NCBI GenBank assembly: GCA_947630785.1
Contig: CANRIW010000011.1
Location: forward strand, 1 to 53,529
From: an uncultured Oscillospiraceae bacterium
GTDB lineage: Bacteria; Bacillota; Clostridia; Oscillospirales; Oscillospiraceae
Length of the DNA: 53,529 nt
Direction: 5' to 3'
The position numbers and the translations under genes were made by a program. The notes below the pieces were generated by a model. It searched no databases, had not been told where the DNA came from, and was given only the letters and a program-made list of their open reading frames with translations. Below are positions 12,580 through 27,205 of this stretch, piece after piece. The first letter of the stretch is position 1, and the number at the start of each line of letters is the position of its first letter.

Positions 12580-12641
12580 AGCCTTGCACCGGGAGGGGCA
12601 ACAAATGGCGGTGCGTCACGGAGGTGCGGAGGAGGTTCGGC

Positions 12642-12962
12642 ATGGGCGAGGAGACGAAGAAAACGGCGCCCCGGCGGTCCAGTGAGCCGGTGAGCCATCT
12701 GCGGAAGCTAGCGCGGTGGAGGAACAATGACGCGGTGAAGCTGGCCTATCTCAGCGAGGAGCAGACGGACCAGATCGACGGGCTGGACCTGGCGGGGGTG
12801 ACCGAGCTGAAGCGGCACGGCAACGGGTCCGTCGAGCTGAAATTCGTGGACAAGGTGCGGGTGCTGGACCTGCTGGGCCAGCTGCTGGACCGGCGGGACG
12901 ACCGGGAGCTGGGCAGGCTGCTGGATGAGCTGGGCACGGCGGAGAGCGGCGATGGACAGTGA
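12642..12962 (+). CDS. Phage terminase small subunit, short form
   Basis: 106 aa. The segment ~65-85 (VELKFVDKVRVLDLLGQLL) matches the C-terminal end of PBSX-type small terminases (pattern VK..DK..ALELLGK), and the gene overlaps the large subunit. Usual members are about 140-180 aa and begin with a helix-turn-helix that recognises packaging sites. Here only a basic 40-residue lead precedes the C-terminal part and no clear HTH is seen. The ATG at 12642 has AGGAGG six bases upstream. It is probably the first gene of the phage-derived operon. The identification rests on context plus the C-terminal pattern. Confidence 0.75.
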   Translation: MGEETKKTAPRRSSEPVSHLRKLARWRNNDAVKLAYLSEEQTDQIDGLDLAGVTELKRHGNGSVELKFVDKVRVLDLLGQLLDRRDDRELGRLLDELGTAESGDGQ

Positions 12963-14194
12963 GCGGGCGCGGATTTTCCCCCAAACAGCGGAAGGTGCTG
13001 ACCTGGTGGAGGATGGGGGACTATGACGCCGTCATCTGCGACGGGGCGGTGCGCTCCGGGAAGAGCTACGCGGTGACCGTCGCGTTCTTCCTGTGGGCCA
13101 TGGTCCGGTTCCAGCGGCAGCGGTTCGGCCTGTGCGCCCCCACCGTCAACGGGGCGCGGCGCAATCTGCTGGCCCCTGTGCGGGGGGAGATGGAGGCACT
13201 GGGCTTCCGCTGGGAGGAGCGGCTCAGCCGGAACCAGGTGGTGCTCCGGGGCGGAGGACGGGAGAACACCTTCTATCTCTACGGCGGGCGGAACGAGGCC
13301 AGCGCTTCCCTCATCCAGGGGGTGACCCTGGCGGGGGCGCTGCTGGACGAGGTGGCGCTGATGTCCCGGTCCTTTGTGGAGCAGGCCGTGGCCCGGTGCT
13401 CCCTACCGGAGGCCAAGGTGTGGTTCTCCTGCAACCCGGCGGGGCAGGCCCACTGGTTCTACCGGGAGTGGATCCAGCGGGCGGAGGAGAAGCGGGCGCT
13501 GTACCTCCATTTCACCATGGACGACAACCCGGCCCTGACCAGGCGGGCCAAGGAGCGGTACCGGCGGATGTTCCGGGGGGTCTTCTACCGGCGGTATGTG
13601 CTGGGGGAGTGGGTGTCCCCGGAGGGGCTGGTGTACGACTTCTTCGACCCCGCCCGGGTCCCGCCCGCCCCCAGGGGCGGCTGTGAGCGGTGGCGGATCT
13701 CCTGCGACTACGGCACCCGGAACCCGGCCTCCTTCGGCCTGTGGGGGCTGAAAGACGGGGTGTGGTACCGGGTGAGGGAGTTCTACTACGACGCCTCGGC
13801 GGAGGGCAGCCAGAGGACCGACGGCGAATACGTCCAGGACCTGGAGCGGCTGGCCGGGGGACGGCGGATCGAGGCAGTCATCGTGGACCCGTCGGCGGCC
13901 AGCTTTATCGAGGCGCTGCGGCGGCAGGGCTGGCCGGTGCGGAAGGCGGACAACCGAGTGCTGGAGGGCATCCGGCGGACGGCGGAGGCGCTGAAAGAGG
14001 GCAGGATCGTCGTCTGTCAGGGGTGCGGGGCCGCCCTCCGGGAGTTCGGGCTGTACCGCTGGGAGGACGACGGGACGAAGGACCGGGTCCACAAGGAGAA
14101 CGACCACGCCATGGACGACATCAGGTATTTCGTCATGAGTTTGGAGACGGAGGAGCCGCTTGCGGCGGTGAGCGTGGAACGAAGGGCTGTGTAG
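12959..14194 (+). CDS. Phage terminase large subunit (PBSX XtmB type)
   Basis: 411 aa. The motor that pumps DNA into the prohead. The ATPase domain has Walker A GAVRSGKSY (~28) and Walker B LLDEVAL (~126), with a coupling segment FSCNPAGQAHWFY. The C-terminal RNase H-like nuclease domain has the acidic residues in SCDYGTRNPAS (~247), VDPSAASFI (~309) and NDHAMDDIRYF (~380). All key residues look intact. It starts at a GTG inside the TGA of the small subunit. The stop is followed immediately by a hairpin and the dispersed repeat. Confidence 0.95.
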   Translation: MSGRGFSPKQRKVLTWWRMGDYDAVICDGAVRSGKSYAVTVAFFLWAMVRFQRQRFGLCAPTVNGARRNLLAPVRGEMEALGFRWEERLSRNQVVLRGGGRENTFYLYGGRNEASASLIQGVTLAGALLDEVALMSRSFVEQAVARCSLPEAKVWFSCNPAGQAHWFYREWIQRAEEKRALYLHFTMDDNPALTRRAKERYRRMFRGVFYRRYVLGEWVSPEGLVYDFFDPARVPPAPRGGCERWRISCDYGTRNPASFGLWGLKDGVWYRVREFYYDASAEGSQRTDGEYVQDLERLAGGRRIEAVIVDPSAASFIEALRRQGWPVRKADNRVLEGIRRTAEALKEGRIVVCQGCGAALREFGLYRWEDDGTKDRVHKENDHAMDDIRYFVMSLETEEPLAAVSVERRAV

Positions 14195-14213
14195 GGGCGC
14201 ACAGTGTGCGCCC
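14195..14213. repeat. Perfect hairpin abutting the terL stop
   Basis: GGGCGCACA-G-TGTGCGCCC begins at the base after the TAG stop of the large terminase. No T-run follows, so it is not a good terminator. It may be a second type of dispersed palindrome. Confidence 0.6.
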
Positions 14214-14241
14214 GAACGATCAAGGCAGGGGCCTGTGCGCC

Positions 14242-14338
14242 CCCTCATCCGCCCCCTTCGGGGGCACCTTCCCCCCGGCCTCATCCGTCAGCCTTCGGCT
14301 GACACCTTCCCCGCAAGCGGGGAAGGCTTTTAGAGGAA
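14242..14338. repeat. Palindromic intergenic repeat, copy 2 (one and a half units)
   Basis: CCTCATCCG-hairpin-CACCTTCCCC occurs first as a partial unit (14242-14275). A full unit follows: CCTCATCCGTCA, hairpin, ACACCTTCCCC, GCAAGC, GGGGAAGGCTTTTAGAGGAA. The full unit matches copy 1 at 9676-9749 except in the small hairpins, where changes are paired and so keep the stems. The 220-base gap between terminase and decoration genes is made largely of this element. Confidence 0.87.
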
Positions 14339-14435
14339 GGTTATTTCGATCGGGTGGAAGGCTTAAGAGCTTTAAGCGGGGAGATACCCTGTAAAGGGGT
14401 TTCCAGATATACATTCAATGAGAGGAGTCAGAGAC
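14339..14435 (+). other. Leader before the capsid genes
   Basis: Contains the dyad GCTTAA-GAGCT-TTAAGC (14361-14377). I see no convincing -35/-10 pair, so either transcription reads through from the terminase genes or an unrecognised regulated promoter lies here. Confidence 0.35.
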
Positions 14436-14786
14436 ATGGAGATTTGCTTTGAGGGCATCGGTCAGGCGGTGGCCACCTTCCAGACGGAGGCGGAGCTGAG
14501 CGCCGGCCAGGCGGTGGCGCTGACCGGCAGCTCCACAGTGGGATTGGGCGAGAGCGGCGCGCTGCCCTGCGGCGTCACCGCGGGCGCGGCCCGGAACGGG
14601 GCGGTGGCCGTCCAGATCGCGGGGATGGTGACGGTGGCCTATTCCGGCGAGACCGCGCCCAAGGCAGGCTATGAGAGCCTGACCTGCGACGGCAAGGGGA
14701 TGCTGGTCAAGGCTGAGGACAGCGGGCTCACCTGCCTGGTGCTGGCCGTGGACGAGACCGCCAAGACCGTCACCGTGAAGCTGTAA
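14436..14786 (+). CDS. Capsid decoration-like small protein
   Basis: 116 aa, rich in Gly, Ala, Val and Thr, predicted all-beta with no membrane segment or signal. Its position just before the major capsid gene, its size and its composition fit the head-decoration/stabilising proteins of tailed phages (DUF2190-like). Sequence alone does not prove this. The ATG at 14436 has AGGAG eight bases upstream, better than the ATG at 14418. It ends 20 bases before the capsid start. Confidence 0.6.
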   Translation: MEICFEGIGQAVATFQTEAELSAGQAVALTGSSTVGLGESGALPCGVTAGAARNGAVAVQIAGMVTVAYSGETAPKAGYESLTCDGKGMLVKAEDSGLTCLVLAVDETAKTVTVKL

Positions 14787-14806
14787 ATAACGGGAGGAGA
14801 TCAGAT

Positions 14807-15829
14807 ATGGCTTATCGATTCGACAATGTGAAGCTGGAGAAGGGCATGTACCACGAGGCGGGCAGGTCCTTCACCCAGGTGCTGGAGAAGATGGACCCCA
14901 GCGAGCAGTACAAGGGCACCGCCCTGGAGGGGCTGGACGCCTATCAGCGCCAGCTCAAGCGGTTCGACATCAAGGTGAAGGGGGCCGGCTCCGACCTGGT
15001 GGACAAGTTCTTCTCCACCTCCCAGTCCGCGGTGCTGTTCCCTGAGTACATCGCCAGAGCGGTGAAGGTGGGCATGGAGGAGGCCAACATCCTCCCCGAC
15101 ATCACCGCCACCGAGACCCTCATCGAGGGGATGGACTACCGCTCCATCACCTCCGTGCCGGAGGATGAGAAGGAGCTGAAGCGGGTGGCTGAGGGCGCGG
15201 TCATCCCCCAGACCACCGTGCGCACCAGGGACAGCCTGGTGAAGCTCCACAAGCGGGGCCGCATGCTGGTGGCCTCCTATGAGGCCATCCGGTTCCAGAA
15301 GCTGGACCTGTTCTCCGTCACCCTGCGGCAGATCGGCGCCCAGATCGGGCGGATGCACCTGGAGGACGCCATCGAGGTGATCCTCAACGGGGACGGCAAC
15401 GACAACAAGGCGGAGGTCTCCCACGTGGCCGCCACCGGCAAGCTGACCTACGACGATTTGCTGGCCTTCTGGAACGGCTTTGAGCCCTATCAGCTCAATA
15501 CCCTGCTGGTGGGCACCGACACCATGACCAGGCTGCTGGCCATGAGCCAGATGCAGGACGCCGCCGCCGGGCTGGACTTCCACGGCACCGGCAGGCTCAT
15601 CACCCCCATGGGGGCCAGGGTGCTGCGCACCTCCGCCATGCCCAGGGACACCATCATCGGCCTGGACAAAAACTACGCCCTGGAGATGGTGAAGGCCGGC
15701 GACGTGATGGTGGAGTACGACAAGATCATCGACCGGCAGCTGGAGCGGGCGGCCATCACCACCATCTCCGGCTACGCCAAGATCTTTGAGGACGCCAGCC
15801 GCGCCCTGTCCATGAACGCGGCGGGCTGA
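14807..15829 (+). CDS. Major capsid protein (HK97 fold, XkdG-like)
   Basis: 340 aa. Pattern of an HK97-type capsid protein: N-terminal charged arm (~1-60), then the shell domain beginning ~AVLFPEYIARAVKVGMEEANILPDI, with a long helix (DLFSVTLRQIGAQIGRMHLEDAIEVI, ~165-195) and a C-terminal ERAAITTISGYAKIFEDASRA segment. No separate scaffold gene is present, so the N-terminal arm may be trimmed by the downstream protease. GGGAGGAGATC precedes the ATG. It is placed before the portal gene, the reverse of the usual order. Confidence 0.87.
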   Translation: MAYRFDNVKLEKGMYHEAGRSFTQVLEKMDPSEQYKGTALEGLDAYQRQLKRFDIKVKGAGSDLVDKFFSTSQSAVLFPEYIARAVKVGMEEANILPDITATETLIEGMDYRSITSVPEDEKELKRVAEGAVIPQTTVRTRDSLVKLHKRGRMLVASYEAIRFQKLDLFSVTLRQIGAQIGRMHLEDAIEVILNGDGNDNKAEVSHVAATGKLTYDDLLAFWNGFEPYQLNTLLVGTDTMTRLLAMSQMQDAAAGLDFHGTGRLITPMGARVLRTSAMPRDTIIGLDKNYALEMVKAGDVMVEYDKIIDRQLERAAITTISGYAKIFEDASRALSMNAAG

Positions 15830-15848
15830 GCCCGATAGGAGGCGGAGC

Positions 15849-16994
15849 ATGAGCCTTCTGAGACAAAAACAGGCGGGGCAGGCGGCGGCCGCCGCCCAGC
15901 TCCGGGACGCCGGACGGCATCCCTTTGCTATGCTGGACGGCTACGTGCCCCTCCACAACGGGGAGACTGCCCTGTACCGGGCTATCCGGGAGGGGGTGCC
16001 CGTCATCGACGCGGCCATCGACAAGCTGGTCCGGCTGTGCGGCGGGGTCACCGTCCGGTGCAGGGACCGAAAGGCCCAGGAGGGGATGGAGCGGTTCCTC
16101 CGCACTGTCCCCACCGGCCGGGGCCAGCGGGGCATCCAGTCCTTTCTGGACGGCTATCTGGACTCCATGCTGGTGGCCGGCCGGGCGGTGGGGGAGATGG
16201 TGCCCTCCGCCGACGGCCGGGACGTGGCGGCGGTGCTGTGGGCCGACGTGAGCCGGGTGGAGATCCGGGAGGGGGACAGCCCCCTGGACTTCACCCTCTG
16301 GGCCAGGGACAGCGACGGGAAGCTCAGAGAGCTGCCCCGGCAGGAGCTGCTGCTGTTCACCCCCTTCCAGCCGGAGACCGGGGCGCCCTACGGCGCGTCC
16401 ATGCTGCGGTCCATGCCCTTTTTGACGGAGATCCTGATGAAGATATTCGACGCCACGGGCAAGAACTGGGAGCGGATGGGCAACGTGCGCTTCGCGGTGG
16501 TGTGCAAGGGCGCCGAGGCGGGCCTGGCCGAGGAGCGGTGCCGGCAGGTGGCAAAGGAATGGTCCGCCGCCATGCAGGCCAGCCGGGACGGGGCCGTGCG
16601 GGACTTCGTGTGCGCCGGGGACGTGGAGATCCGCGCCATCGGCGCGGACAACCAGATCCTGGACAGCGAGGTGCCGGTGCGGCAGATTCTGGAGCAGCTG
16701 GTGGCCAAGACGGGCATCCCGCCCTTTTTGCTGGGCCTGAGTTGGTCGTCCACCGAGCGGATGAGCAGCCAGCAGGCCGACATCCTCACCAGCGAGATCG
16801 CCGCCATCCGGCGGAGCCTGGAGCCGGTGGTGGAGCGGATCTGCGAGCTGTGGCTGAGGTTGCACGGCTATGACGACCGGGTGGACATCGACTGGATCGA
16901 CGTGAATTTGCAGGACGAGGAGGCCGAGGCCAGAGCGGCGCTCTACCGGGCGCAGGCCGGAGCCATCGAGGAGGGAAAGAATGGAGATCAGTAA
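15849..16994 (+). CDS. Phage portal protein (XkdE-like)
   Basis: 381 aa, short for the family (usually 450-500). Features typical of portals: a leading segment on pairs of subunits (VPVIDAAIDKLVRLCGG), a central LLLFTPFQPETGAPYGASML stretch (host/clip region), and the helical stem and crown ending in PPFLLGLSWSSTERMSSQQADILTSEI followed by a long helix. The AGGAGGCG site supports 15849. It overlaps the protease gene by 14 bases. It would form the dodecameric vertex through which terminase loads DNA. Confidence 0.85.
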   Translation: MSLLRQKQAGQAAAAAQLRDAGRHPFAMLDGYVPLHNGETALYRAIREGVPVIDAAIDKLVRLCGGVTVRCRDRKAQEGMERFLRTVPTGRGQRGIQSFLDGYLDSMLVAGRAVGEMVPSADGRDVAAVLWADVSRVEIREGDSPLDFTLWARDSDGKLRELPRQELLLFTPFQPETGAPYGASMLRSMPFLTEILMKIFDATGKNWERMGNVRFAVVCKGAEAGLAEERCRQVAKEWSAAMQASRDGAVRDFVCAGDVEIRAIGADNQILDSEVPVRQILEQLVAKTGIPPFLLGLSWSSTERMSSQQADILTSEIAAIRRSLEPVVERICELWLRLHGYDDRVDIDWIDVNLQDEEAEARAALYRAQAGAIEEGKNGDQ

Positions 16995-17847
16995 GGACGC
17001 GGTGGTGAAGGCCATCGGCCGGCCGGAGGGGGAGGACATGGTCCTCATCAACGCCCTGGCCCGGCGGGAGCTTCAGTCGGAGGAGGTCTACACCTTCGCG
17101 GTGCGGCTGTGCGACAACGACATCGACCGGGACTTTGAGCGGTTCGACGATGGGGCGCTGGACGCCCTGGCGGAGCTGTTCCCGGGGGTGTCCGGGGTGT
17201 TCGACCACCAGTGGTCGGCCAGGGGACAGACCGCCCGCATCTACCGCACCGAGGTGGTGACGGACCCCGGCGTGGTCACCGCCGACGGGCGGCCCTACAA
17301 GTTTTTGAAGGGCTGGGCCTACATGATGCGCACGGCGGAGAACGCCGACCTCATCGCCGAGATCGACGGGGGCATCAAGCGGGAGGTCAGCGTGGGCTGC
17401 GCGGTGGAGAGCGTGCTGTGCTCCATCTGCGGCGAGCCCCTGGAGGACTGCCCCCACGAGAAGGGACAGGAGTACGACGGGCAGCTGTGCTGCGGCGTCC
17501 TCACCGGGGCCACCGACGCCTACGAGTGGTCCTTCGTGGCGGTGCCCGCCCAGCGGAAGGCGGGGGTCATCAAGAGCGCCAGACGGCTGGAGGACGAGGC
17601 CCGGCTGGGCCGGAAGTACCTCAAGAGCCTGCGCCGGGAGACGGCCCGGCTGGCGGGCATCGCCGAGCCGGGGGCCGACCGGACCCTGCTGGAGCGGGTG
17701 TGTGCCAAGCTGGACGAGGAGGAGCTGCTGGGCCTCATCAAACTGTATCGGGGGCGGACCGACAGGCTGCTCACCGGGCGGCCCCAGCTCTCCTACGGCG
17801 AGGAAGGGCAGGAGCCGGAGATGGCCGACGGGGCCTATCTCATCTGA
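16981..17847 (+). CDS. Prohead maturation protease (XkdF-like)
   Basis: 288 aa. Herpes-type serine protease fold inferred from a conserved His in GVFDHQWS (H76) and the nucleophile Ser in REVSVGC (S137), the spacing and motif of HK97-type prohead proteases. A Cys/His cluster follows (CSICG, CPHEKG, CC at ~150-170), possibly binding zinc. The C-terminal third is charged and may act as internal scaffold. It starts inside the portal gene at an ATG preceded by GGAGGG. It probably cleaves the capsid arm during assembly. The acidic third member of the triad cannot be assigned by eye. Confidence 0.8.
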   Translation: MEISKDAVVKAIGRPEGEDMVLINALARRELQSEEVYTFAVRLCDNDIDRDFERFDDGALDALAELFPGVSGVFDHQWSARGQTARIYRTEVVTDPGVVTADGRPYKFLKGWAYMMRTAENADLIAEIDGGIKREVSVGCAVESVLCSICGEPLEDCPHEKGQEYDGQLCCGVLTGATDAYEWSFVAVPAQRKAGVIKSARRLEDEARLGRKYLKSLRRETARLAGIAEPGADRTLLERVCAKLDEEELLGLIKLYRGRTDRLLTGRPQLSYGEEGQEPEMADGAYLI

Positions 17848-17862
17848 TAGGGGGGCGCGGAT

Positions 17863-18210
17863 ATGACTGACGCGGTGCTGGAGATCGTGAAGGGGCTGTG
17901 CCCCGGACGGGACGAGGAGCTGCTGCGGCTGCTGTGCGCAGCCGCCTGCGAGGCGCTGGACGGCCTGCTGCGGGAGGACGTAAAGCCGGAGGACTGCGGC
18001 GGGCGGTTCGCCCTGGCGGCGGCGTGGCTGGCCGCCGACTGGCTGCGGGACTGCGGCGGTACATCGGAGATCACCGCCCTGTCCGCCGGGGACCTGAGCG
18101 TCCGCCGGGAGAGCGGGGCGTCCGCCGGAAGGCTGTCCGGCAGAGCCATGGAGCTGATGGCCCCCTACATCCGGGATGCCGGATTCGTGTTCCGGGGGGT
18201 GCGGGGATGA
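17863..18210 (+). CDS. Head-tail connector protein (XkdH/gp6-like)
   Basis: 115 aa, mainly helical, beginning with a compact DEELLRLLCAAACEALDGLLREDV helix pair followed by WLAADWLRDC and a C-terminal MELMAPYIRDAGFVFRGVR. Size, helix layout and position right after the protease fit the adaptor ring proteins that bind the portal. It ends with an ATGA overlap with the next gene. Confidence 0.65.
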   Translation: MTDAVLEIVKGLCPGRDEELLRLLCAAACEALDGLLREDVKPEDCGGRFALAAAWLAADWLRDCGGTSEITALSAGDLSVRRESGASAGRLSGRAMELMAPYIRDAGFVFRGVRG

Positions 18211-18542
18211 CAGAGCTGTTCAGAGAGGTCATCCGCGCCTACGGCAAGGAGCTCATCTGCCGGACAGGGGACGGGGTCGAGGCCGGCCGGGGGATGGCCA
18301 TCGTCCGGCCCATGACCGGACGGGACCGGCAGACCGCCGGCGGGGCGCTGGGCCGTGAGCGGACCGACGCATTTCTGGGGCTGGCCGAGCCGGGGACGCC
18401 GGTGGAGGACATCGGTCCCGGCGGCTGGCTGGAGTGGAGCGGCCAGCGGTTCGAGGTGCTGAACTGCCAGCCCATCCCGGTGGGGGACGCCGTCACCCAC
18501 CTGTGGCTGGCCCTGCGGCCCTGCGGGGAGACCGCCCCATGA
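18207..18542 (+). CDS. Head-tail joining protein (XkdI-like position)
   Basis: 111 aa, predicted beta-rich, with no membrane segment. I recognise no signature beyond position: second of three small genes between connector and sheath, as the head-completion protein in PBSX-type clusters. Both ends overlap neighbours by four bases, which fixes the ATG at 18207. Confidence 0.6.
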   Translation: MTELFREVIRAYGKELICRTGDGVEAGRGMAIVRPMTGRDRQTAGGALGRERTDAFLGLAEPGTPVEDIGPGGWLEWSGQRFEVLNCQPIPVGDAVTHLWLALRPCGETAP

Positions 18543-19039
18543 GCGGCGGGTTCAACGGACTGCGGGAGAGGGTCGTCGCCCTCCTGCGGGAGAACGGGGT
18601 CAACGCGGTGCCCGCCGGGGCCCCGGAGCCGGCGGGCCGGTGGAGAGAGGCTACGGCGGCGGTGTCCGTGAAGCGGGTGCGGTGCGCCGACAGCGGGTTC
18701 CAGAACTATCTGGGCAGCGAGGCCAACGGCAGCAGGGTGACGGAGCTCTACGGCCGGGCGGCGGACATCACCCTGGCCATCGACGTGTACGCCCCCCCGG
18801 ACGGGGGCGAGGGGGCCTGTCAGGAGACGGCGGAGAAGATCGCGGAGCTGCTGCTGACCCGGGGGGCGGGCGGCCTGGAGCCCGCCGAGTGGACGGCGGA
18901 GCGGGCCGAGTGGCTGGACCGGGAGGGCATGTACCGGCTGCGGACCGAGTGCCTGTGCCGGGCGTGGCTCACCGTGGCCGCGGAGGCCGAGGGCGGCCCG
19001 GGCTTTACGGACTTTGAAGTGAAAGGGAGAAAAGCATGA
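18539..19039 (+). CDS. Tail completion/terminator protein (XkdJ-like position)
   Basis: 166 aa alpha/beta protein starting with GLRERVVALLRENGVNAVPAG and containing AADITLAIDVYAPPDGGEGAC. The layout resembles minor tail proteins that cap the tube and sheath below the connector. The call rests on order and size. The ATGA overlap sets the start, and the stop overlaps the sheath start. Confidence 0.6.
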   Translation: MSGGFNGLRERVVALLRENGVNAVPAGAPEPAGRWREATAAVSVKRVRCADSGFQNYLGSEANGSRVTELYGRAADITLAIDVYAPPDGGEGACQETAEKIAELLLTRGAGGLEPAEWTAERAEWLDREGMYRLRTECLCRAWLTVAAEAEGGPGFTDFEVKGRKA

Positions 19040-20088
19040 GCATGACAGTACAGCATGAGCGGCCGGGGGTGTACTCCTCCTACGAGGCGTCCAGTCTGAC
19101 AGCCGCGTCGGTCCGCGGCGGCGCGGTGGCCATCATCGCCAAGGCGGATAAAGAGGACGCTCAAAAGGTCTACACCTGGAGCAGCTACAGCCGGGCCGCG
19201 GGCGACGTGGGCGCCTGTACCCTCAGCGAGATGGCGCGGCTGGCCATCCGCAACGGCGCGGGGCTGGTGTACGGCCTCCCCGTGAAAACGGACGAGGGCT
19301 ATGACGACGCTTTTGTTCTGGCGGCGGGGCTGGAGGATGTGGCCGTGGCGGTGTGTGACAGCGACGACCAGGACGTGCAGAAGAAGCTGATGGAGATGGC
19401 GCGGACCTGCTCCGCCGCCCGGAAGGAGCGCATCGCCGTGGTGGGCGGCAGGGCCGCCGAGACGGTGGAGCAGCTCACCGCGCGGGCCAAGGCGCTCAAC
19501 AGCGAGCGGGTGGTGCTGGCGGCCCCCGGCGCAGTGGACAGCGCCGGCAAGGGGATCGGCGGCGCCCTCTGCGCCGCGGCGGTGGCGGGGGCCATCGCCG
19601 GAAACGCCGATCCGGCTCTGCCGCTTGGGGGCGTTCAGCTCTATGGGCTGAGCGGGCTGGAGACCAACTATGACGACGGGGACATCGACCTGCTCATTCA
19701 GGGCGGCGTCACCCCCCTGGAGACGCTGGCGGGGAACTGCTATGTGGTGCGGGCCGTCACCACCCGGACCACCACCGGCTCCGCCGGGGACCCTACCTGG
19801 CGGGAGCTGACCACCATCCTGGTGGTGGACGAGGTCATCCCCGGCATCCGGGACGCACTGCGGGCCAAATTCAGCCGGGCCAAAAACACGGAGCAGACCA
19901 GAGGGGCCATCCGCGCCCAGACCGTGATGGAGCTGGAGCGGCGGGTAGAGCGGGAGATCATCGACAGCTATGAGGACGTGACCGTGTCCGCCCTGCCGGA
20001 GGACCCCACCGTGTGTCTGGTGGAGTTTGCCTTCACCGTGGCCCACGGGCTGAACCAGATCTGGCTGTCGGCCCACATCACCGTTTGA
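19036..20088 (+). CDS. Contractile tail sheath protein (XkdK-like)
   Basis: 350 aa. N-terminal RPGVYSSYEA and C-terminal strand-rich part (VDEVIPGIRDALRAKF ... TVSALPEDPTVCLVEFAFTVAHGLNQIWLSAHITV) follow the family pattern of myophage and PBSX sheaths, whose C-terminus builds the handshake between subunits. It is somewhat short compared with the usual ~450 aa, lacking much of the outer domain. Its presence marks the element as having a contractile tail. It is followed after 14 bases by the tube gene, the usual pairing. Confidence 0.88.
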   Translation: MSMTVQHERPGVYSSYEASSLTAASVRGGAVAIIAKADKEDAQKVYTWSSYSRAAGDVGACTLSEMARLAIRNGAGLVYGLPVKTDEGYDDAFVLAAGLEDVAVAVCDSDDQDVQKKLMEMARTCSAARKERIAVVGGRAAETVEQLTARAKALNSERVVLAAPGAVDSAGKGIGGALCAAAVAGAIAGNADPALPLGGVQLYGLSGLETNYDDGDIDLLIQGGVTPLETLAGNCYVVRAVTTRTTTGSAGDPTWRELTTILVVDEVIPGIRDALRAKFSRAKNTEQTRGAIRAQTVMELERRVEREIIDSYEDVTVSALPEDPTVCLVEFAFTVAHGLNQIWLSAHITV

Positions 20089-20102
20089 TAGGGGGAGAGA
20101 GC

Positions 20103-20504
20103 ATGAGCATTGCCTTTGGACAGGCGGGGTTCCCCACCAGCAGCGACATCTGGCTGGAGCTGGACGGCAAAAAGGTGGCCGTGGTGCAGAGCTACGCCAG
20201 CAAGTCCACCAGGACCTCCGGCACGGTGGAGGCCTTCGGCGAGAGTGAGCCGGTGGCCACCGTGCAGGGGCCCCAGACCCACACCATCCAGCTGAGTCGG
20301 CTGTACGCCACCGACGGGGCCATCGCCGACGGACTGGACTTCTATGATTTGAAAGACTTTTCCCTGGTCATCTGCAAGCCGGACCGGAAGATCATCTACT
20401 CCGACTGCCAGTGGAGCGACATCCAGGAGGACGCCAGGCTGGGCCAGACCGTGGTGGAGAAGCTGACCATGGTGGCCCGGAAGCGGCTGGAGATCAGGAC
20501 ATGA
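20103..20504 (+). CDS. Tail tube protein (XkdM-like)
   Basis: 133 aa, beta-rich, with the tube family feel: start MSIAFGQAGFPTSSDIWLELDGKKV, then QSYASKSTRTSGTVEAFGE and IQLSRLYATD. It would form hexameric rings inside the sheath. The ATG at 20103 follows GGGGAGAGA. It directly follows the sheath gene and overlaps the chaperone gene by four bases. Confidence 0.87.
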   Translation: MSIAFGQAGFPTSSDIWLELDGKKVAVVQSYASKSTRTSGTVEAFGESEPVATVQGPQTHTIQLSRLYATDGAIADGLDFYDLKDFSLVICKPDRKIIYSDCQWSDIQEDARLGQTVVEKLTMVARKRLEIRT

Positions 20505-20914
20505 GCATCCGGGCGGGACGGGAGCGGATGACTGTGCCCGAGGGGGAGCTGCGGCTGCTGTCCGCCCTGGAGGCGCTGGAGGCCCGCCGGGAGGGGGCCG
20601 CACTGGCCGCCGATGAGAAGGAGCGGGCCCTGTGCGACAACGCCTGCCTCATCGCCAGGGCGCTGGAAAAGGACGGGAAGCCCGTCTTTGCCGACGGGCG
20701 GGCCGCGCTGGACGGGCTACGGGTGGAGGACATCGCCCGCCTGGCGGACCAGTGGGCGAAATTCAACCGGGAGCAGAACCCCTCTCCGGTGGGGCGCGCT
20801 GAGGAGCAGGAACGGCGAAAAAAAGCCTGGAGCACGCGCGTTATGAGCGCCTTCAATGGCGCGTGCTCCGCCTGTTCGGCGCTCTTCCCACGGAGGAACG
20901 GGCCCGGAAGATGA
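20501..20914 (+). CDS. Tail assembly chaperone, G-type product (XkdN-like)
   Basis: 137 aa zero-frame product of a two-frame gene. Helical N-terminal part (ELRLLSALEALEARREG, residues ~15-32) and a basic end. It sits between the tube gene and the place where a tape measure would be, the universal position of the lambda gpG/P2 gpE chaperone. Codons 107-108 form the run A AAA AAA at 20818-20824, and -1 slippage there joins the downstream frame. The start overlaps the tube stop (ATGA). Confidence 0.82.
   Translation: MSIRAGRERMTVPEGELRLLSALEALEARREGAALAADEKERALCDNACLIARALEKDGKPVFADGRAALDGLRVEDIARLADQWAKFNREQNPSPVGRAEEQERRKKAWSTRVMSAFNGACSACSALFPRRNGPGR
20818..20884 (+). promoter_or_regulatory. 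Programmed -1 frameshift signal (slippery heptamer plus pseudoknot)
   Basis: A AAA AAA (20818-20824) is in phase for tandem slippage (zero-frame codons cgA AAA AAA). Four bases later begins a perfect 11-bp stem, GGAGCACGCGC (20829-20839) with GCGCGTGCTCC (20859-20869). Its loop contains GAGCGCC (20845-20851), which is perfectly complementary to GGCGCTC (20878-20884), giving an H-type pseudoknot. Slippage enters the -1 frame, which is open to 21111. Confidence 0.85.
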
Positions 20915-21111
20915 AGGACCGGGACTATCTGTGGTGCGCTTTGAATCTGGCGCTGGACCGGGAGGAGGAACTGGCGCGGCTGTGCCCCTCCTGCCGGGAG
21001 CGGGCGGAGCGGGAGCCCTGCCCCGCATGCGGCGCCCCCCGGGAGAGCTGGGGGGTCAACGCCGGGTTCGACTGGGCGCGGTATGTGAAGCTGAAGGAGG
21101 GCGGCGTGTAA
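20824..21111 (+). CDS. Tail assembly chaperone, T-type extension made by -1 frameshift
   Basis: 95 codons in the -1 frame, read as the second half of a ~203 aa fusion (first 108 residues from the upstream gene). The extension has a helical start (SLEHARYERLQWRVLRLFGA) and a zinc-finger-like pair CPSC...CPAC near its middle, ending FDWARYVKLKEGGV. There is no ribosome site before the only internal start (GTG 20863), so separate translation is unlikely. In lambda and P2 the equivalent fusion binds the tape measure protein. Confidence 0.8.
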   Translation, partial: SLEHARYERLQWRVLRLFGALPTEERARKMKDRDYLWCALNLALDREEELARLCPSCRERAEREPCPACGAPRESWGVNAGFDWARYVKLKEGGV

Positions 21112-21657
21112 GTGATCGACCGATTGGCGGAACTGCTGGGCGTTTCGGAGCGTGAGGACGAGGACGAGAGGGAGAAAGACGAGGATGTGGTGGACGCCGG
21201 CCCTCTGACCGGGCCGGGGCGGCTGAAGGCCGCACCGGATCCGGAAAAGCCGGAGACCGGCATGGAAAAGGACGGCCCGGAGGAGGAACCGGCGGAGCCT
21301 GTTCCGGAGGGAATAGCGCCGGCGGTCCGGGAGAGCGCCGCCGGCATGGCCGACCCCCTCCCGGCGCTGACGGGGAAGGACGGACCGGTCCTGGCCGGGA
21401 TGTTAAAGCTCCCCGGAGAGACCGGATGGCCGTCCGCCGCTGAGTGCGACAGGGACCAGGCGGGCCTGGAACTGCTGTACCGGGCCGCGGCCCGGGCGGC
21501 AGAGCCGGTCTTCGAGGCCCCAATGGCAGACCGGAGCGCGGACCGGACGCTGCCGGAGCCGGTGCTGTCCCAGCCCGCCCGGATGTCGTTGGAGGAGCTG
21601 GACCGGGCCATGCGCCGGGACAGCCGCCGGTATGACGGCGGAATGACCATCTATTGA
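21112..21657 (+). CDS. Acidic low-complexity protein in the tape-measure position
   Basis: 181 aa, rich in Glu, Asp, Pro and Gly, with a charged start ([19 protein letters not shown]), a disordered middle and a helical, conserved-looking end ([20 protein letters not shown]). It has no membrane segment or coiled coil of tape-measure type. It fills the slot of the tape measure (XkdO, >1000 aa in PBSX) but is far too small and Pro-rich to span a normal tail. It starts at a GTG directly after the frameshift product stop, with AAGGAGG 11 bases upstream. The function is unknown. Confidence 0.65.
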
Positions 21658-21674
21658 CGAGAGGAGCGGGAAAC

Positions 21675-22247
21675 GTGAACCTTTCTCCCATGCGATTCAA
21701 AAACTTTGTGTGGCCTCACAATCCCAGGACCTATACCATCACCTTTGAGCGGAAGATGGCGGTGCATAAGATCCCCTTCGGGCGGCACTGCCTCCAGAGC
21801 CTGGGCCAGACCCGGCGGGTGCTCCGGGGGGAGGGAGAGTTCGCGGGTAAGGGGGCCTACGACACCTTCAAAAAACTGGCCGATGTGTTCTATGAGGAGA
21901 CGCCGGGGGTGCTGGTCCATCCGGTATGGATGACCACCACCGCCTGGTTCGCGGCGCTGGAGCTGCGGCAGGAGCCGCGGCCGGACTATGTGGCCTATTC
22001 CTTTGAGTTCTGGGAGACCGTGGAGGAGGGGAACACCGGATTGACCGCGGGGGCTGTTTCGACCGCCAGCGGCGGGAGCGGCGGCGGTCAGACAGGCGGC
22101 CAGACGTGGTACACTGTGGTGAAGGGGGATACTCTCTGGGGCATCTCCCGGCGGTACGGCGTCACACTGGCGCGGATCATCGCCCTGAACCCCCAGATCA
22201 AGAATCCGAATCTGATCTTTGTGGGACAGAAGGTGAGAGTGAGATGA
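21675..22247 (+). CDS. LysM-containing tail/baseplate protein (XkdP-like)
   Basis: 190 aa. The N-terminal ~125 residues are a beta-rich domain typical of XkdP-type proteins joining tube to hub. A Gly/Ser/Thr linker follows, then a C-terminal LysM domain (~145-190: [16 protein letters not shown] ... LNPQI ... IFVGQKVRV). LysM modules bind peptidoglycan. The GTG at 21675 has GAGGAG eight bases upstream; ATG 21690 is an alternative. It overlaps the hub gene by ATGA. Confidence 0.88.
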
Positions 22248-23197
22248 TCCAGTGCTGGGTGACCAAGGGAGACGGGACCATGCTGACGCTGCCAACGGCG
22301 GTGAGCTGGCGGTTTTGCTACGGCACGGACACCCCCTGTGACAGCTTTGAGGTGCAGTGCCTGTGGGAGCGGGGGCAGGAGAAGGAGCTGTCCTCCGCCA
22401 GCCGGTTCTATGCCCAGTGGGAGGACGAGCGGGTGTTCACCGGTGTGGTGGACGAATACGCCGTGGTGTGCGGCAAGGAAGGACTCTATCTGGAGCTTTC
22501 GGGCAGGGGGATGGCGGCTCTGCTGCTGGACAATGAGGCCATGCCGGCACAATATCAGAGAGCGACTAAGGCGGTCATCGTGGCGGACCATGTGACGCCA
22601 TACGGCATCACCGCTGTCGGCGGGGACAGCCTGCCAGTGGTGAGCGGCTTCCGGGTGAGCAGCGGGGAGAGCGAGTGGAGCGTGGTGCGGAACTATGTCT
22701 GCTGCTACGGCGGGGTGGTGCCCCGGTTCGACCGGATGGGCCGGCTGGTGCTGGACCGCCACGGGGACAGGACGGCCCTGAAGATCGGGGACGGCACTGT
22801 TCTCACGGGGTGGGAGTATCGGGAGGACCGCCACGGAGTGCTGAGTCAGGTGGCGGTGCGCCGGAACACCTATCCCGGCGTGCAGTGGGTCAGCGACAGG
22901 AGTTTTCTTGCCGAGGGAGGAAAGGCCCGGCGGGTGGTCACGGTGCCCAACGCCACCGGGACGGCGGCCATGCGGTACACGGCGGACTATCAGCTGCGGG
23001 CGTCCCGCCGGGAGCGAAAGCGGATGACGGCGGCATTGGCCGGGGCCTTCCTGGCCTGGCCGGGAGACTTGGTGGACGTATCCCTCACCGGCTGCGGGGC
23101 CAACGGACGCTATCGTGTGGCCCAGGCGGAGGTGTCCTGCGGAGAGGACGGCCTGACCACCAGATTGGTCCTGGGCGAGCCGGAGAGCATGATCTGA
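22244..23197 (+). CDS. Baseplate hub protein (XkdQ / late control D-like)
   Basis: 317 aa beta-rich protein in the XkdQ position. N-terminal strands up to residue ~100, a central [22 protein letters not shown] segment as in gpD/gp27-like hubs, and a C-terminal stretch with [28 protein letters not shown], the usual end of XkdQ. It would form the trimeric hub carrying the spike. The start is fixed by ATGA overlap with the LysM gene. Confidence 0.85.
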
Positions 23198-23214
23198 ACG
23201 GGAGATGGATAAGT

Positions 23215-23571
23215 ATGTGGCTAAGCGGACAGCAGAGACGACCCGCTGAGAGCGGCGAGGGCCAGACCGGCACCGTGACCATCAGCGGGGGAGAGCTGGC
23301 GGTGGAACTGGACAGCGAGCGGCGGGGTTTGGAACTGTACGGCCCCGCCGGCTATCGCTGGACCCCAAAGGTAGGGGAGCGGGTCTTGGTGATCCAGGGC
23401 AGGGGAGAGGATCCCTGCGTAGTCGGGACCAAAACGGGGGCCTATGTGCCCGACCGGGTAACGATCGAGGCGGGGAGCATCGATCTGAACGGACAGGTGC
23501 TCATCGGCGGCGTACCGCTGGAGAGCTATATCATAAGTCATATGAGCGGTCTGATGGGGGGAGAGGTATGA
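23215..23571 (+). CDS. Baseplate spike protein (XkdR / gpV-like)
   Basis: 118 aa. An OB-fold-like stretch (GERVLVIQGRGEDPCVVG, ~65-82) is followed by a short strand series VTIEAGSIDLNGQVLIGGVPL, the pattern of gpV/gp5 spike tips (OB fold then beta-helix). It is shorter than most gpV proteins. The ATG at 23215 has GGGAGA upstream. It overlaps the gp25-like gene by four bases. Confidence 0.78.
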   Translation: MWLSGQQRRPAESGEGQTGTVTISGGELAVELDSERRGLELYGPAGYRWTPKVGERVLVIQGRGEDPCVVGTKTGAYVPDRVTIEAGSIDLNGQVLIGGVPLESYIISHMSGLMGGEV

Positions 23572-23915
23572 GTCTGCGGCTGGTGAACAGGGATTACGCG
23601 GCGAGCGGAGGCGGCCTTGTCTCCGATACCGGCGAGGAGGCTCTGCTGGACGAGGTGCTGTTCCGGCTCACCGTCCGCCGGGGGAGCTTTCCCTTCCTGC
23701 CCGAGCTGGGCAGCCGGATGTATCTGCTCCGGCGGGAGAAGTCCTCCGCCCGAACGGACCTGGCGTGTCAATATGCCGCCGAAGCGCTGTCCGGAATATC
23801 CGGTTTAGCGGTGACCGGGGCGACAGTGGGTTGGCGGGAGGATGATCTGACGGCAGAGATCTCCCTGCTGTGGCAGGGGGAAAAACTGACGGTGACGGCA
23901 CAGGTGGAGGAATGA
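23568..23915 (+). CDS. Baseplate wedge protein (XkdS / gp25-like)
   Basis: 115 aa member of the gp25/gpW lysozyme-like wedge family shared by myophages, R-type pyocins and type VI secretion. Pattern: EEALLDEVLFRLTVRRGSFPFLPELGSRMYLL, then a helix and C-terminal strands ending LTVTAQVEE. It would link sheath and baseplate. It sits between spike and baseplate J, the standard order. Confidence 0.9.
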   Translation: MSLRLVNRDYAASGGGLVSDTGEEALLDEVLFRLTVRRGSFPFLPELGSRMYLLRREKSSARTDLACQYAAEALSGISGLAVTGATVGWREDDLTAEISLLWQGEKLTVTAQVEE

Positions 23916-23918
23916 CAG

Positions 23919-24977
23919 ATGATGACCTTGGAGGAGATCTATCAAAATCTGGCGGCGGTTTTTCAGGAGCGGACCGGCCAGAGCGCGGCGGGAAACAGCG
24001 AACTGGCGGTGCGGTTCTACGCGGTGGCTTCGGAGCTGTACAGCCTGTACGTCCAGGCGGAGTGGACCAGGCGGCAGTGTTTCCCACAGACCGCCGCAGG
24101 CGAGGACCTGGACAACCACGCCTGGCTGAGGGACATCGGCCGGCGGCAGGCGGTGAAGGCCACCGGTACGGTGCGCTTTTTTGTGAATGAGGAGCGGGAG
24201 AGCGACGTGCCCATTCCGGCGGGAACGGTGTGCATGACCGCCGTGGGGACGCGCTTCATGACCACTGAGGATGGTGCGGTGAGGTCCGGCACTACGCAGA
24301 CCGACGTGCCGGTGGAGGCGGAAGAGGAGGGCGCGGGCGGCAACGCGGCGCCGAATACCATCGTGTACATGGCACTGCCTCCCGCGGGAATATCCGCCTG
24401 CACCAATCCCGACGCGCTGGTGAATGGGCAGGACCAGGAGAACGACGAGAGCCTCCGGGCACGGGTGCTGGAGAGCTACCGACGGCTGGCCAATGGCGCC
24501 AACAGCGCCTTCTATCGGCAGGCGGCGATGGCCTTCGACGGGGTGGCGGCCGTGACGGTGCTCCCCAAGGCGCGGGGCGTGGGCACCGTGGATCTGGTGG
24601 TAGCCAGCCAGGGCGGAAAACCGGGGCAGGAGCTGCTGAGCGCCCTGCAGAGCTATTTTGACCAGGTGCGGGAGATCGCGGTGGATGTGGATGTGAAAGC
24701 GCCTGCTGAGCATGAGGTGGATGTGGAGGCCGCGGTCACCGCCAAAGCGGGACGGCAGTTCGAAGAAGTGAAGAGCGCTGTGGAGGCGGCGGTGCAGGGC
24801 TGGTTCACCGGGGAGCGGTTGGGCAGTCCCCTCACCAAAGCGGAGTTGACCGCCCTGATCTTCGGTGTGGACGGGGTGGCCAATGTGACCGTCAGCCAGC
24901 CGGCGGAGGATCTGGCCGCGGAGAGTTCTGCACTGCCGGTCCTTGGGACGCTTACCGTCACCAACGGGGCACAGTAA
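23919..24977 (+). CDS. Baseplate J-like protein (XkdT)
   Basis: 352 aa. Standard baseplate J features: N-terminal helix pair (AVRFYAVASELYSLYVQAEW), AGEDLDNHAWLRDIGR, then beta domains with VPIPAGTVC, the long central NDESLRARVLESYRRLANGANSAFYRQAAMAFDGVAAVTVLP segment and a C-terminal VANVTVSQP. Full length for the PBSX type. The ATG at 23919 has GGAGG eight bases upstream. It makes the baseplate periphery. Confidence 0.93.
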   Translation: MMTLEEIYQNLAAVFQERTGQSAAGNSELAVRFYAVASELYSLYVQAEWTRRQCFPQTAAGEDLDNHAWLRDIGRRQAVKATGTVRFFVNEERESDVPIPAGTVCMTAVGTRFMTTEDGAVRSGTTQTDVPVEAEEEGAGGNAAPNTIVYMALPPAGISACTNPDALVNGQDQENDESLRARVLESYRRLANGANSAFYRQAAMAFDGVAAVTVLPKARGVGTVDLVVASQGGKPGQELLSALQSYFDQVREIAVDVDVKAPAEHEVDVEAAVTAKAGRQFEEVKSAVEAAVQGWFTGERLGSPLTKAELTALIFGVDGVANVTVSQPAEDLAAESSALPVLGTLTVTNGAQ

Positions 24978-24989
24978 GGGGGCCGCGCA

Positions 24990-25568
24990 ATGAGCTATGA
25001 AAACTACCTGGTGGAGCTGCTGCGGCCTCTTGGGGTGTATGACCTGCGGGAGGACACTGTCAACCGGGGGGAGCTGGCAGCCTATGGCGGGGCGCTGGAC
25101 GGCGTCGGGACGGAGCTGGACGACACCGCGAGAGAGATGTCCCTGGCCACGGCGGAGGGCTTTGGCCTGGAGCGGATCGAGGAACTGCTGCCCTACCGGC
25201 CGGTATGCGAGACGACCAGGCAGCGGCAGCGGGCCCTGGCGGCGCTGCTCCGAATCAGCGGGGACAGCTTTACGCCGGCCGCCGTCAACGACACCCTGAC
25301 CGGGTGTGGGCTCAACGCCGCGGCGGAGGAGACCGGCAAGCCGGGATATGTCCGGGTGCGGTTCCCGGAGGTGGCGGGCATCCCGGAGGGATTTGAACAG
25401 ATGAAGGCCATCATCGAGGAGATCCTGCCCTGCCACCTGGACATCGAATATAAGTTCTGGTATAACACATGGGCCATGGTCCGGGAGCGGCATCCCACGT
25501 GGAGGCACGCCATGGACACGGCATTGAGCTGGTACGGCATTGCCACGGAACATGAGGCGTGGGATTGA
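24990..25568 (+). CDS. Tail protein I-like (XkdU / YmfQ, DUF2313)
   Basis: 192 aa, matching the XkdU/YmfQ family: N-terminal DLREDTVNRGELAAYGGALDGVGTELDD, middle ETTRQRQRALAALLRISGDSFTPAAV and C-terminal PCHLDIEYKFWYNTW. Last gene of the block. No tail fibre, fibre chaperone, holin or endolysin follows; a terminator comes eight bases later. Confidence 0.9.
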   Translation: MSYENYLVELLRPLGVYDLREDTVNRGELAAYGGALDGVGTELDDTAREMSLATAEGFGLERIEELLPYRPVCETTRQRQRALAALLRISGDSFTPAAVNDTLTGCGLNAAAEETGKPGYVRVRFPEVAGIPEGFEQMKAIIEEILPCHLDIEYKFWYNTWAMVRERHPTWRHAMDTALSWYGIATEHEAWD

Positions 25569-26089: not shown

Positions 26090-26176
26090 AATATGTGCGT
26101 TTTCATCGAAAGGTGAGATTTGCCATTTTACCGCCGCCGGGCTGGACCGGGGGCGTATGATACAGGAGTGAGCGAT

Positions 26177-27205
26177 ATGTCTCTGTTTGCGAAGGATATC
26201 GGTATCGACCTGGGCACCGCTACCGTGCTGGTCTATATCAAGGATAAGGGCATCGTGCTGCGGGAGCCCTCCGTGGTGGCCCTGGACAAGAACACCGGCA
26301 AACTGCTGAAGGTGGGCACCGAGGCCCAGCAGATGCTGGGGCGCACCCCCGGCAACATCGTGGCCATCCGGCCCCTGCGGGAGGGCGTCATCTCCGACTA
26401 CGACATGACCGAGCGGATGCTCCGGGAGTTCATCCGCAAGGTGGCCCCCATCCGGCTGTTCAAGCCCAGGGTGGTCATCTGCGTGCCCTCCGGCATCACC
26501 GAGGTGGAGGAGCGCGCCGTCATCGACGCGGGCATCCAGGCCGGCGCCCGGAAGGTGTACCTCATCGAGGAACCCCTGGCAGCCGCCATCGGCGCGGGAG
26601 TGGATATTACCCAGCCTGACGGCCACATGGTGGTGGACATCGGCGGCGGTACCGCCGACATCGCCGTCATCTCCCTGTCCGGCATCGTGGAGTCCGCCTC
26701 CATCAAGGTGGCGGGCGACGCGTTCAGCGAGGCGGTGGTGAAGTATATCCGCAAGCGCCACAACGTGCTCATCGGCGACCGCACCGCCGAGGAGTTGAAG
26801 ATGACCATCGGCTGTGTGTTCCCCCGGCCAGAGGAGATCACCATGGAGATCAAGGGCCGCTGCCTGATGACCGGTCTGCCCCGGGTGTTCTCCGTGTCCT
26901 CCAGCGAGATGATCGAGGCCTTCGAGGAGCCCTGCTCCCGTATCCTGGAGGCGGTCCACGGCGTCCTGGAGCGCACGCCGCCCGAACTGGTGGCCGACAT
27001 CTCCAGCAACGGCATCATCATGACCGGCGGCGGTTCCCTGGTCTGGGGCTTTGACAAGCTCATCGAGTCCCACACCGGCATCGAGACCTATGTGGCGGAC
27101 GACGCCATTTCCTGCGTGGCTCACGGTACCGGCAAGAGCCTGGACTGGATCAACGACATGCAGGACGGCACCATGAACATCTCCCGCAGCCGGCAGATGC
27201 TGTGA
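26177..27205 (+). CDS. mreB: MreB/Mbl-family actin-like cell-shape protein
   Basis: 342 aa, normal length. Phosphate-1 loop GIDLGTATVLVY (~7-18), connecting part CVPSGITEVEERAVIDAG, phosphate-2 VDIGGGTADIAV (~154), and adenosine motif IIMTGGGSLVWG (~285). It polymerises along the membrane and guides wall synthesis. It stands alone, without mreC/mreD or a division operon, so it may be an Mbl- or MreBH-like paralogue. AGGAGTGA lies seven bases before the ATG at 26177. It is monocistronic with its own promoter and terminator. Confidence 0.94.
   Translation: MSLFAKDIGIDLGTATVLVYIKDKGIVLREPSVVALDKNTGKLLKVGTEAQQMLGRTPGNIVAIRPLREGVISDYDMTERMLREFIRKVAPIRLFKPRVVICVPSGITEVEERAVIDAGIQAGARKVYLIEEPLAAAIGAGVDITQPDGHMVVDIGGGTADIAVISLSGIVESASIKVAGDAFSEAVVKYIRKRHNVLIGDRTAEELKMTIGCVFPRPEEITMEIKGRCLMTGLPRVFSVSSSEMIEAFEEPCSRILEAVHGVLERTPPELVADISSNGIIMTGGGSLVWGFDKLIESHTGIETYVADDAISCVAHGTGKSLDWINDMQDGTMNISRSRQML

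Follow-up and report, generated by a model that had tools for sequence, protein, structure and literature searches.

A conserved A7 slip site with a downstream RNA structure as a probable -1 frameshifting signal in a tail gene of a host-tied particle cluster of Oscillospiraceae

We report that a gene located beside the presumed tail tube gene in a 53,529-nucleotide contig of an uncultured Oscillospiraceae bacterium (hereafter the window, meaning this whole stretch) is in all likelihood decoded by -1 programmed ribosomal frameshifting at an A7 heptamer followed by a pseudoknot, giving two presumed assembly factors, G and G-T. Comparison of related sequences reveals coding in two frames, a conserved slip site, a constrained RNA structure, and the absence of this slip site from the genes in which both halves form one ORF. 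The features concerned are as follows.

12624-25568, + strand: particle cluster, from small terminase to baseplate proteins, ~13 kb
19036-20088, + strand: contractile tail sheath (PF17482/PF04984)
20103-20504, + strand: tail tube protein (phrog_27038, 2e-54, a family of unknown function; tube label taken from its position beside the sheath)
20501-20914, + strand: zero-frame ORF, G, 137 aa without frameshift (ORF reading; homologues)
20803-20806, + strand: Shine-Dalgarno-like GGAG, ending 11 nt 5' of the heptamer
20818-20824, + strand: slippery heptamer A AAA AAA (present in 29 of 29 loci, the window's copy counted)
20824-21111, + strand: -1 frame, T, 95 aa with two CxxC motifs, which would be entered by frameshift
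20829-20839, + strand: stem 1, 5' strand
20845-20851, + strand: stem 2, 5' strand, inside the stem 1 loop
20859-20869, + strand: stem 1, 3' strand
20878-20884, + strand: stem 2, 3' strand
21112-21657, + strand: 181-aa protein in the place of the tape measure, with a variable linker and a conserved C-terminal RDxRRYDG
26120-27205, + strand: host mreB/mbl (PF06723), 3' neighbour of the cluster

The heptamer is in phase with the ATG at 20501, the codons reading CGA AAA AAA, and the -1 frame is open from 20803 to 21111, the zero-frame stop being at 20912-20914. Without a shift, G ends at 20914 and counts 137 aa; the -1 fusion, G-T, ends at 21111 and counts 203 aa. A preliminary description of this DNA had put the heptamer in the phase of the upstream gene, the -1 frame open to 21111 and the fused product at about 203 aa, all of which we recovered, the heptamer being exact at every coordinate; the CxxC pair that it saw in the T half is there too, its number being corrected to two CxxC motifs. 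The GC content of the three codon positions (0.78/0.48/0.87 in the zero frame before the slip site, 0.73/0.52/0.86 in the -1 frame after it) changes frame at the slip site itself. The A7 run occurs once on the + strand of the window, and by itself it is no evidence, since five are found on both strands versus 0.68 expected. The T half gave zinc-ribbon matches only below threshold in the HMM search, and a PDB sequence search also returned zinc-ribbon matches to this half, plus one other match at E 5.4.

Four nucleotides separate A7 from a perfect 11-bp stem (stem 1), and the seven bases of its loop at 20845-20851 can all pair with 20878-20884 (stem 2); both elements were found at the coordinates first proposed. 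The 71 nt located 3' of A7 are predicted to fold at -31.3 kcal/mol (z -2.0), as low as 9 of 200 shuffles, and a perfect 7-bp match between loop and downstream sequence arose in 149 of 20,000 shuffles. Stem 1 alone is not rare, as perfect 11-bp stems with loops of 3-40 nt start at 32 positions of the window, several of them overlapping. No Rfam family was recognised in the signal, the two matches up to E 5 both lying under the gathering score. The window's fold and second pairing are thus suggestive when taken alone, and it is the comparison with relatives that decides.

A search with the sheath protein matched 35 of 99 genomes, the window's own included, with one match per genome. Thirty loci were fetched, among which L004 is the window's own copy and L033 belongs to another genus; L021 ends before the gene, which leaves 29 readable loci. 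All 29 carry A7, have T in the -1 frame and close the zero frame 29 codons past the slip. Using a 106-base DNA query, the signal was found in 29 of 42 genomes of the genus (own included). The G homologues share 58-94% identity with the window's G in the 28 other loci, and 24-59% in 20 more diverse loci. At the scale of the family, loci were collected through the tube alignment, retaining the 80 best loci out of 301 in genomes and the 80 best out of 163 in viral contigs (160 in total), so that the class counts given below speak for the nearest relatives. The genome loci include Oscillospiraceae bacterium, Flavonifractor, Pseudoflavonifractor, Lawsonibacter, Oscillibacter and Candidatus Enterenecus; some lineages are represented in both the genome and the viral set, and several of the loci L113-L138 are the same contigs as loci with G handles.

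Does the RNA structure persist in these relatives? The structure alignment holds 67 distinct A7 sequences, 33 of which form the window's clade, as read off the family tree with the addition of L196, absent from the tree and placed by its sequence. Over the 67 sequences stem 1 has on average 10.8 of its 11 pairs (97.8% of cells paired), and the 60 nt after the A-run have a mean z of -3.11, with z < -2 in 56 sequences. Changes on both sides of stem 1 occur in 18 cells (0 of 500 shuffles as high) and in three pairs (4 of 500), with shuffles that ignore relatedness; further pair types showed no excess over the shuffles (184 of 500). When both stems are taken together, 91.5% of cells are paired and both partners have changed in six pairs, a count reached in 0 of 500 shuffles. 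Sliding the pairing by +2 gave a covariation score of 0.082 versus 0.085, yet left only 62% of cells paired.

Within the window's clade the pairing is almost without exception, with 363 of 363 cells in stem 1 and 230 of 231 in stem 2. Third positions vary at 2 of 11 paired sites versus 8 of 10 unpaired sites (Fisher p 0.009, relatedness ignored), and the two variable paired sites still pair. Furthermore, the stem 2 pair 20846-20883 is A-U in 30 sequences and C-G in three (L204, L208 and L211); L204 falls in a different starred group of the tree from L208 and L211, which places the change on two separate branches. On one side this change replaces Glu by Ala, and on the other it is a silent change of an Ala codon, for which selection on the protein is no explanation. 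In this clade, the heptamer and both stems are conserved beyond the needs of the protein, with one compensated change in stem 2, and the alignment makes the pseudoknot well supported there, not for the family.

Indeed, stem 2 takes its full 7-bp form in 32 of the 67 A7 sequences, a shifted-by-one 6-bp form in nine (which fits nine of the 35 sequences devoid of the full form) and 6 of 7 pairs in three, and is missing from 23; a nested apical hairpin is possible in 16 of the 67. As stem 2 is missing or shifted in many of the other A7 sequences, we restrict the pseudoknot to the window's clade. The same pattern would be expected if stem 1 were the sole stimulator and the stem 2 pairing a by-product of the protein sequence, with no pseudoknot formed, and a simple stem is reported to suffice in dnaX (PMC5009743). 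We consider this explanation unlikely, though the most serious of those weighed here, as a protein by-product accounts poorly for the near-complete stem 2 pairing of the window's clade and for a Glu to Ala replacement matched twice by a silent codon change. The preliminary description had read the region as a recoding signal and had proposed looking for its heptamer and stems in homologues. Its reading is supported by the invariant A7 and -1 relation of the 29 loci, and by the constraint on both stems, which are kept in the window's clade; farther off, stem 2 is often absent, and stem 1, held by the 67 A7 sequences, is lacking in 22 A9 loci.

Three classes of slip site were found in the family. 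Among the 160 loci, 116 have G and T in the -1 relation, 10 have a single ORF, 30 have G without a recognised T, and four have neither. For the 118 loci consisting of these 116, the window and L033, the slip site is A7G in 85, A9C in 22 and A6C in 11. Stem 1 is lacking in the 22 A9 sequences, with 4.3 pairs and a z of -0.30. Of its 11 pairs, nine are kept in the three distinct A6C sequences, yet their z is -0.40 and they fold no better than shuffles. The view of the signal as a single class, held at first, was dropped in the face of these three classes and of the in-frame fusions. The A9C loci (L156, L158, L187 and 19 more) combine a nine-A run with no downstream stem, and may have switched to transcriptional slippage.

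Could RNA polymerase, slipping on the A-run and producing mRNAs with an extra A, account for the signal of the window as well? Runs of more than seven A's have been linked to transcriptional realignment, and in E. coli frameshifting of 10, 40 and 63% was measured for cassettes carrying 7, 9 and 11 A's, respectively (PMC3711429), which makes a longer A-run a credible substitute for a stem and polymerase slippage plausible for the 22 stemless A9 loci. The window has only A7, followed by a conserved RNA structure at the spacing of ribosomal frameshifting, and for this copy we regard polymerase slippage as highly improbable. All A9 rows lie in one tree group of 27 (support 92, not starred), and for this reason the replacement of a stem by A9 is a step that we infer. 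The tree was built with FastTree on 148 of 165 rows, with L139 among the omitted ones, and many of its forks are unstarred.

The in-frame genes provide a further comparison. An in-phase slippery heptamer (A or T kind) is missing from all 10 one-ORF genes, one of them having a six-A run elsewhere; five join G to nearly all of T and five to its zinc-finger end only. On the tree, where the label 'fused' covers full fusions and G-plus-zinc-finger forms together, the one-ORF state requires five changes, including that of L051, from another genus. Full reading of 10 loci without a recognised T or G gave seven short G that end in the last residues of T; among the other three, L205 has G fused to the next protein and the remaining two lack both. 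The in-frame fusions of several lineages show that evolution can dispense with slippage as the means of setting the G to G-T ratio.

T could also be made alone, by termination and reinitiation at the ATG at 20911, which overlaps the zero-frame stop (ATGA) and has a GGAGG 14 nt upstream. The preliminary description had given the second frame no ribosome site of its own; we found no start codon with a well-placed site, and that statement is to be qualified for this ATG at the stop and its GGAGG. The ATG is present in 28 of the 29 loci (L027 has ATA), and 84 of the 116 -1 loci have their zero-frame stop 29 codons past the slip, as reinitiation would favour; in the other 32 it lies elsewhere. However, the coding constraint begins 5' of the ATG. 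Synonymous differences, counted over 28 rows (L027, whose T runs off the contig, being dropped), amount to 1099 of 7008 (0.157) in T codons 0-20 and to 0.314 and 0.315 in the G parts, 0.347 in T codons 21-29, and 0.298 and 0.302 further on. Past the RNA structure, at 20887-20913, differences reach 0.387 at the third positions of the -1 frame versus 0.124 and 0.131 at the other two, and protein identity is 0.78 in the -1 frame versus 0.51 in the zero frame, a pattern which indicates that T is already coding before its first ATG. Four aligned in-frame fusions, moreover, retain the part of T that precedes the position of this ATG. We therefore give reinitiation a very small chance of being the way in which T is made. 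Finally, homopolymers are prone to sequencing errors, but a decayed gene or an assembly error that split one frame in two is contradicted by the 29 readable loci, which come from as many genomes and all have the identical A7 and frame relation, by the -1 relation in 116 of 160 family loci and by the dominance of synonymous changes in both halves, and hardly deserves consideration.

The GGAG at 20803-20806, missed in the preliminary description, is a possible third component of the signal. A Shine-Dalgarno-like element lies about 11 nt upstream of the dnaX heptamer, and we take the GGAG, 11 nt 5' of A7, to be in a dnaX-like position. GGAG, GAGG or AGGA ending 7-16 nt upstream of the slip site was found in 64 of 66 A7 loci, 19 of 22 A9 loci and one of three A6C loci (L033, without coordinates, being left out), versus 2099 of 6188 control windows in G, the stretch being Glu-rich and the controls unmatched for Glu. 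This excess is partly expected, since the stretch encodes Glu-Glu.

Put together, the evidence suggests the following course. Ribosomes translating G would reach A AAA AAA and be held there by the stem 1/stem 2 pseudoknot located 4 nt 3' of it, an upstream Shine-Dalgarno-like contact possibly assisting the slip. A fraction would slip by -1, so that G (137 aa) would be accompanied by a minority of G-T (203 aa) with a zinc-ribbon-like C-terminal half. By analogy with lambda gpG/gpGT, both would be assembly factors for the short contractile tail of the element, T presumably recruiting tube subunits and G or G-T holding whatever replaces the tape measure; in lambda the tape measure is bound by both gpG and gpGT, and the tube subunit by T (PMC5009743). 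We infer a ribosomal rather than a transcriptional origin of the slippage, as well as its rate and the chaperone or assembly role. Against frameshifting counts the report that, in E. coli, A_AAA_AAA shifts less readily than A_AAA_AAG (PMC5009743).

The name 'tail chaperone' is positional, as G has no significant family match in the Pfam, PHROG or NCBIfam models; the PHROG chaperones reached only E 0.11 and 0.19 with G, with one member each. G lies directly 3' of the tube gene, whose own label is positional. No ORF of at least 400 aa separates the tube gene from the LysM gene in the 139 loci that reach the latter (21 of the 160 did not), and in 123 of 160 loci the tape-measure position was seen to be occupied by a recognisable protein, 127-334 aa long from stop to stop, with the RDxRRYDG motif at its C-terminus. 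We read this as the sign of an element with, at most, a very short tape measure. In the window, the protein encoded at 21112-21657 has a fast-evolving Pro/Glu-rich linker before this motif. The earlier label of tail chaperone and the likeness to lambda G/GT consequently hold for the position after the tube, have no significant family match behind them, and fail for the tape measure of normal length; with this part of the lambda model lacking, we describe G as working like G/GT and do not file it as proven kin. P2 E/E' is a comparable tail-chaperone frameshift pair.

The particle cluster that carries G and T comprises a small terminase, terminase, structural protein, capsid, portal, sheath, tube, G/T, LysM protein, hub and baseplate proteins. 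Terminase, capsid, portal, sheath, LysM protein, hub, baseplate J and a Mu gp48-like protein were identified by HMM, the last one below the Pfam cut-off; the small terminase, protease and tube labels are positional or presumptive. Gene order is identical across L034-L049, the 16 genus loci taken at 13-20 kb. Mbl/MreB follows the cluster in 13 of these 16, and two others stop at a contig end; in L038 no mreB was seen in ~5.5 kb after the cluster, which points to a different site or a broken assembly. The 5' neighbour is a RecD2-like helicase in the window and its nearest relatives L034 and L035, and most of the others differ. Eleven genomes devoid of the cluster were found and 10 of their mreB regions taken, nine of which were long enough (L314-L322); in all nine, the genes that flank the cluster elsewhere sit within 6 kb upstream of mreB, so that this region resembles an empty site. 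The head module is arranged differently in L050-L053, four loci of other genera, where the portal and the next gene precede the capsid genes.

Sheath distances follow recA distances across 20 genomes (Mantel r 0.84, 0 of 5000 permutations), the trees being correlated and not identical, and sheath dN/dS against the window is 0.16-0.47. The capsid protein was found in 142 of the 400 genomes of the family, distributed over 48 of the 106 genera; G181 and G448 alone have two copies. A PHROG scan of 20 cluster ORFs gave no significant match to integrase or replication proteins. Host-tied inheritance at a fixed site, with no integration or replication genes recognised in that scan, is a trait of gene transfer agents, and we read the cluster as a domesticated, gene-transfer-agent-like one with a contractile sheath, and as no ordinary prophage. 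A described phage as its source was considered and rejected: tube and capsid searches of 50,697 phage records gave 2 and 14 records, the matches above 50% identity being unannotated faecal contigs and the named phages lying at 22-27%.

GTA-like packaging has been reported in Oscillospiraceae, for Onthomonas, in 3 of 25 events; four MAGs are named as searched, one of them Onthomonas, and a strong candidate operon is given for one F. prausnitzii MAG (PMC12946183). PMC12946183 contains neither the word frameshift nor the term tape measure. In Wolbachia, a +1 frameshift has been proposed in a hydrolase gene of a putative GTA (PMC10299305). Among the literature matches listed, with bioRxiv and most subscription papers outside the scope, none deals with a frameshift or such a GTA operon in Oscillospiraceae. 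The cluster may be the source of the GTA-like packaging in Oscillospiraceae that lacks a named operon (PMC12946183). As a wider and tentative proposal, to which we give somewhat less than an even chance, an active contractile-tailed gene transfer agent would exist across the Oscillospiraceae and be the source of the Onthomonas packaging; its tail would have no conventional tape measure, and its G to G-T ratio would be set by frameshifting, with the stimulator swapped (pseudoknot, simple stem, A9, fusion) during host-tied evolution.

This single orthologous gene thus amounts to a natural experiment, offering A7 with a pseudoknot, A7 with a stem, A6C, A9 without structure and in-frame fusions, and with this range of classes the trade between slip site and structure can be tested directly. 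It also raises the question of whether the G to G-T ratio matters in the absence of a long tape measure to coat. Lastly, it draws attention to a host-tied particle cluster, present across the family, in common gut bacteria; GTA-like packaging has been reported in this family without a named operon.

Several known systems resemble parts of this one. The FpGTA of Faecalibacterium is likewise a particle operon of phage origin conserved within one genus of gut Clostridia, and its authors consider it podovirus-like (PMC12946183), whereas the window's cluster has a contractile sheath, belongs to Oscillospiraceae and is known from its genes. The HK97-like tail chaperone cluster shares the presence of a frame transition in phage tail-chaperone genes, with 6-7% frameshifting measured in E. 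coli, and apparently belongs to another gene family (PMC3711429). E. coli dnaX has an A-rich heptamer with a stable stem a few nucleotides 3' (PMC5009743), but here the heptamer is A7 and not A6G, a pseudoknot is predicted in the window's clade, and the new frame gives the longer product. The closest parallel in arrangement is lambda gpG/gpGT (PMC5009743), which also follows the tube gene, slips by -1 near the end of the upstream ORF and yields two products with a shared N-terminus. In contrast to lambda, the gene of the window has no tape measure of normal length 3' of it and no significant family match, uses A7 with a putative pseudoknot, is carried by a host-tied cluster, and is replaced by in-frame fusions in several lineages.
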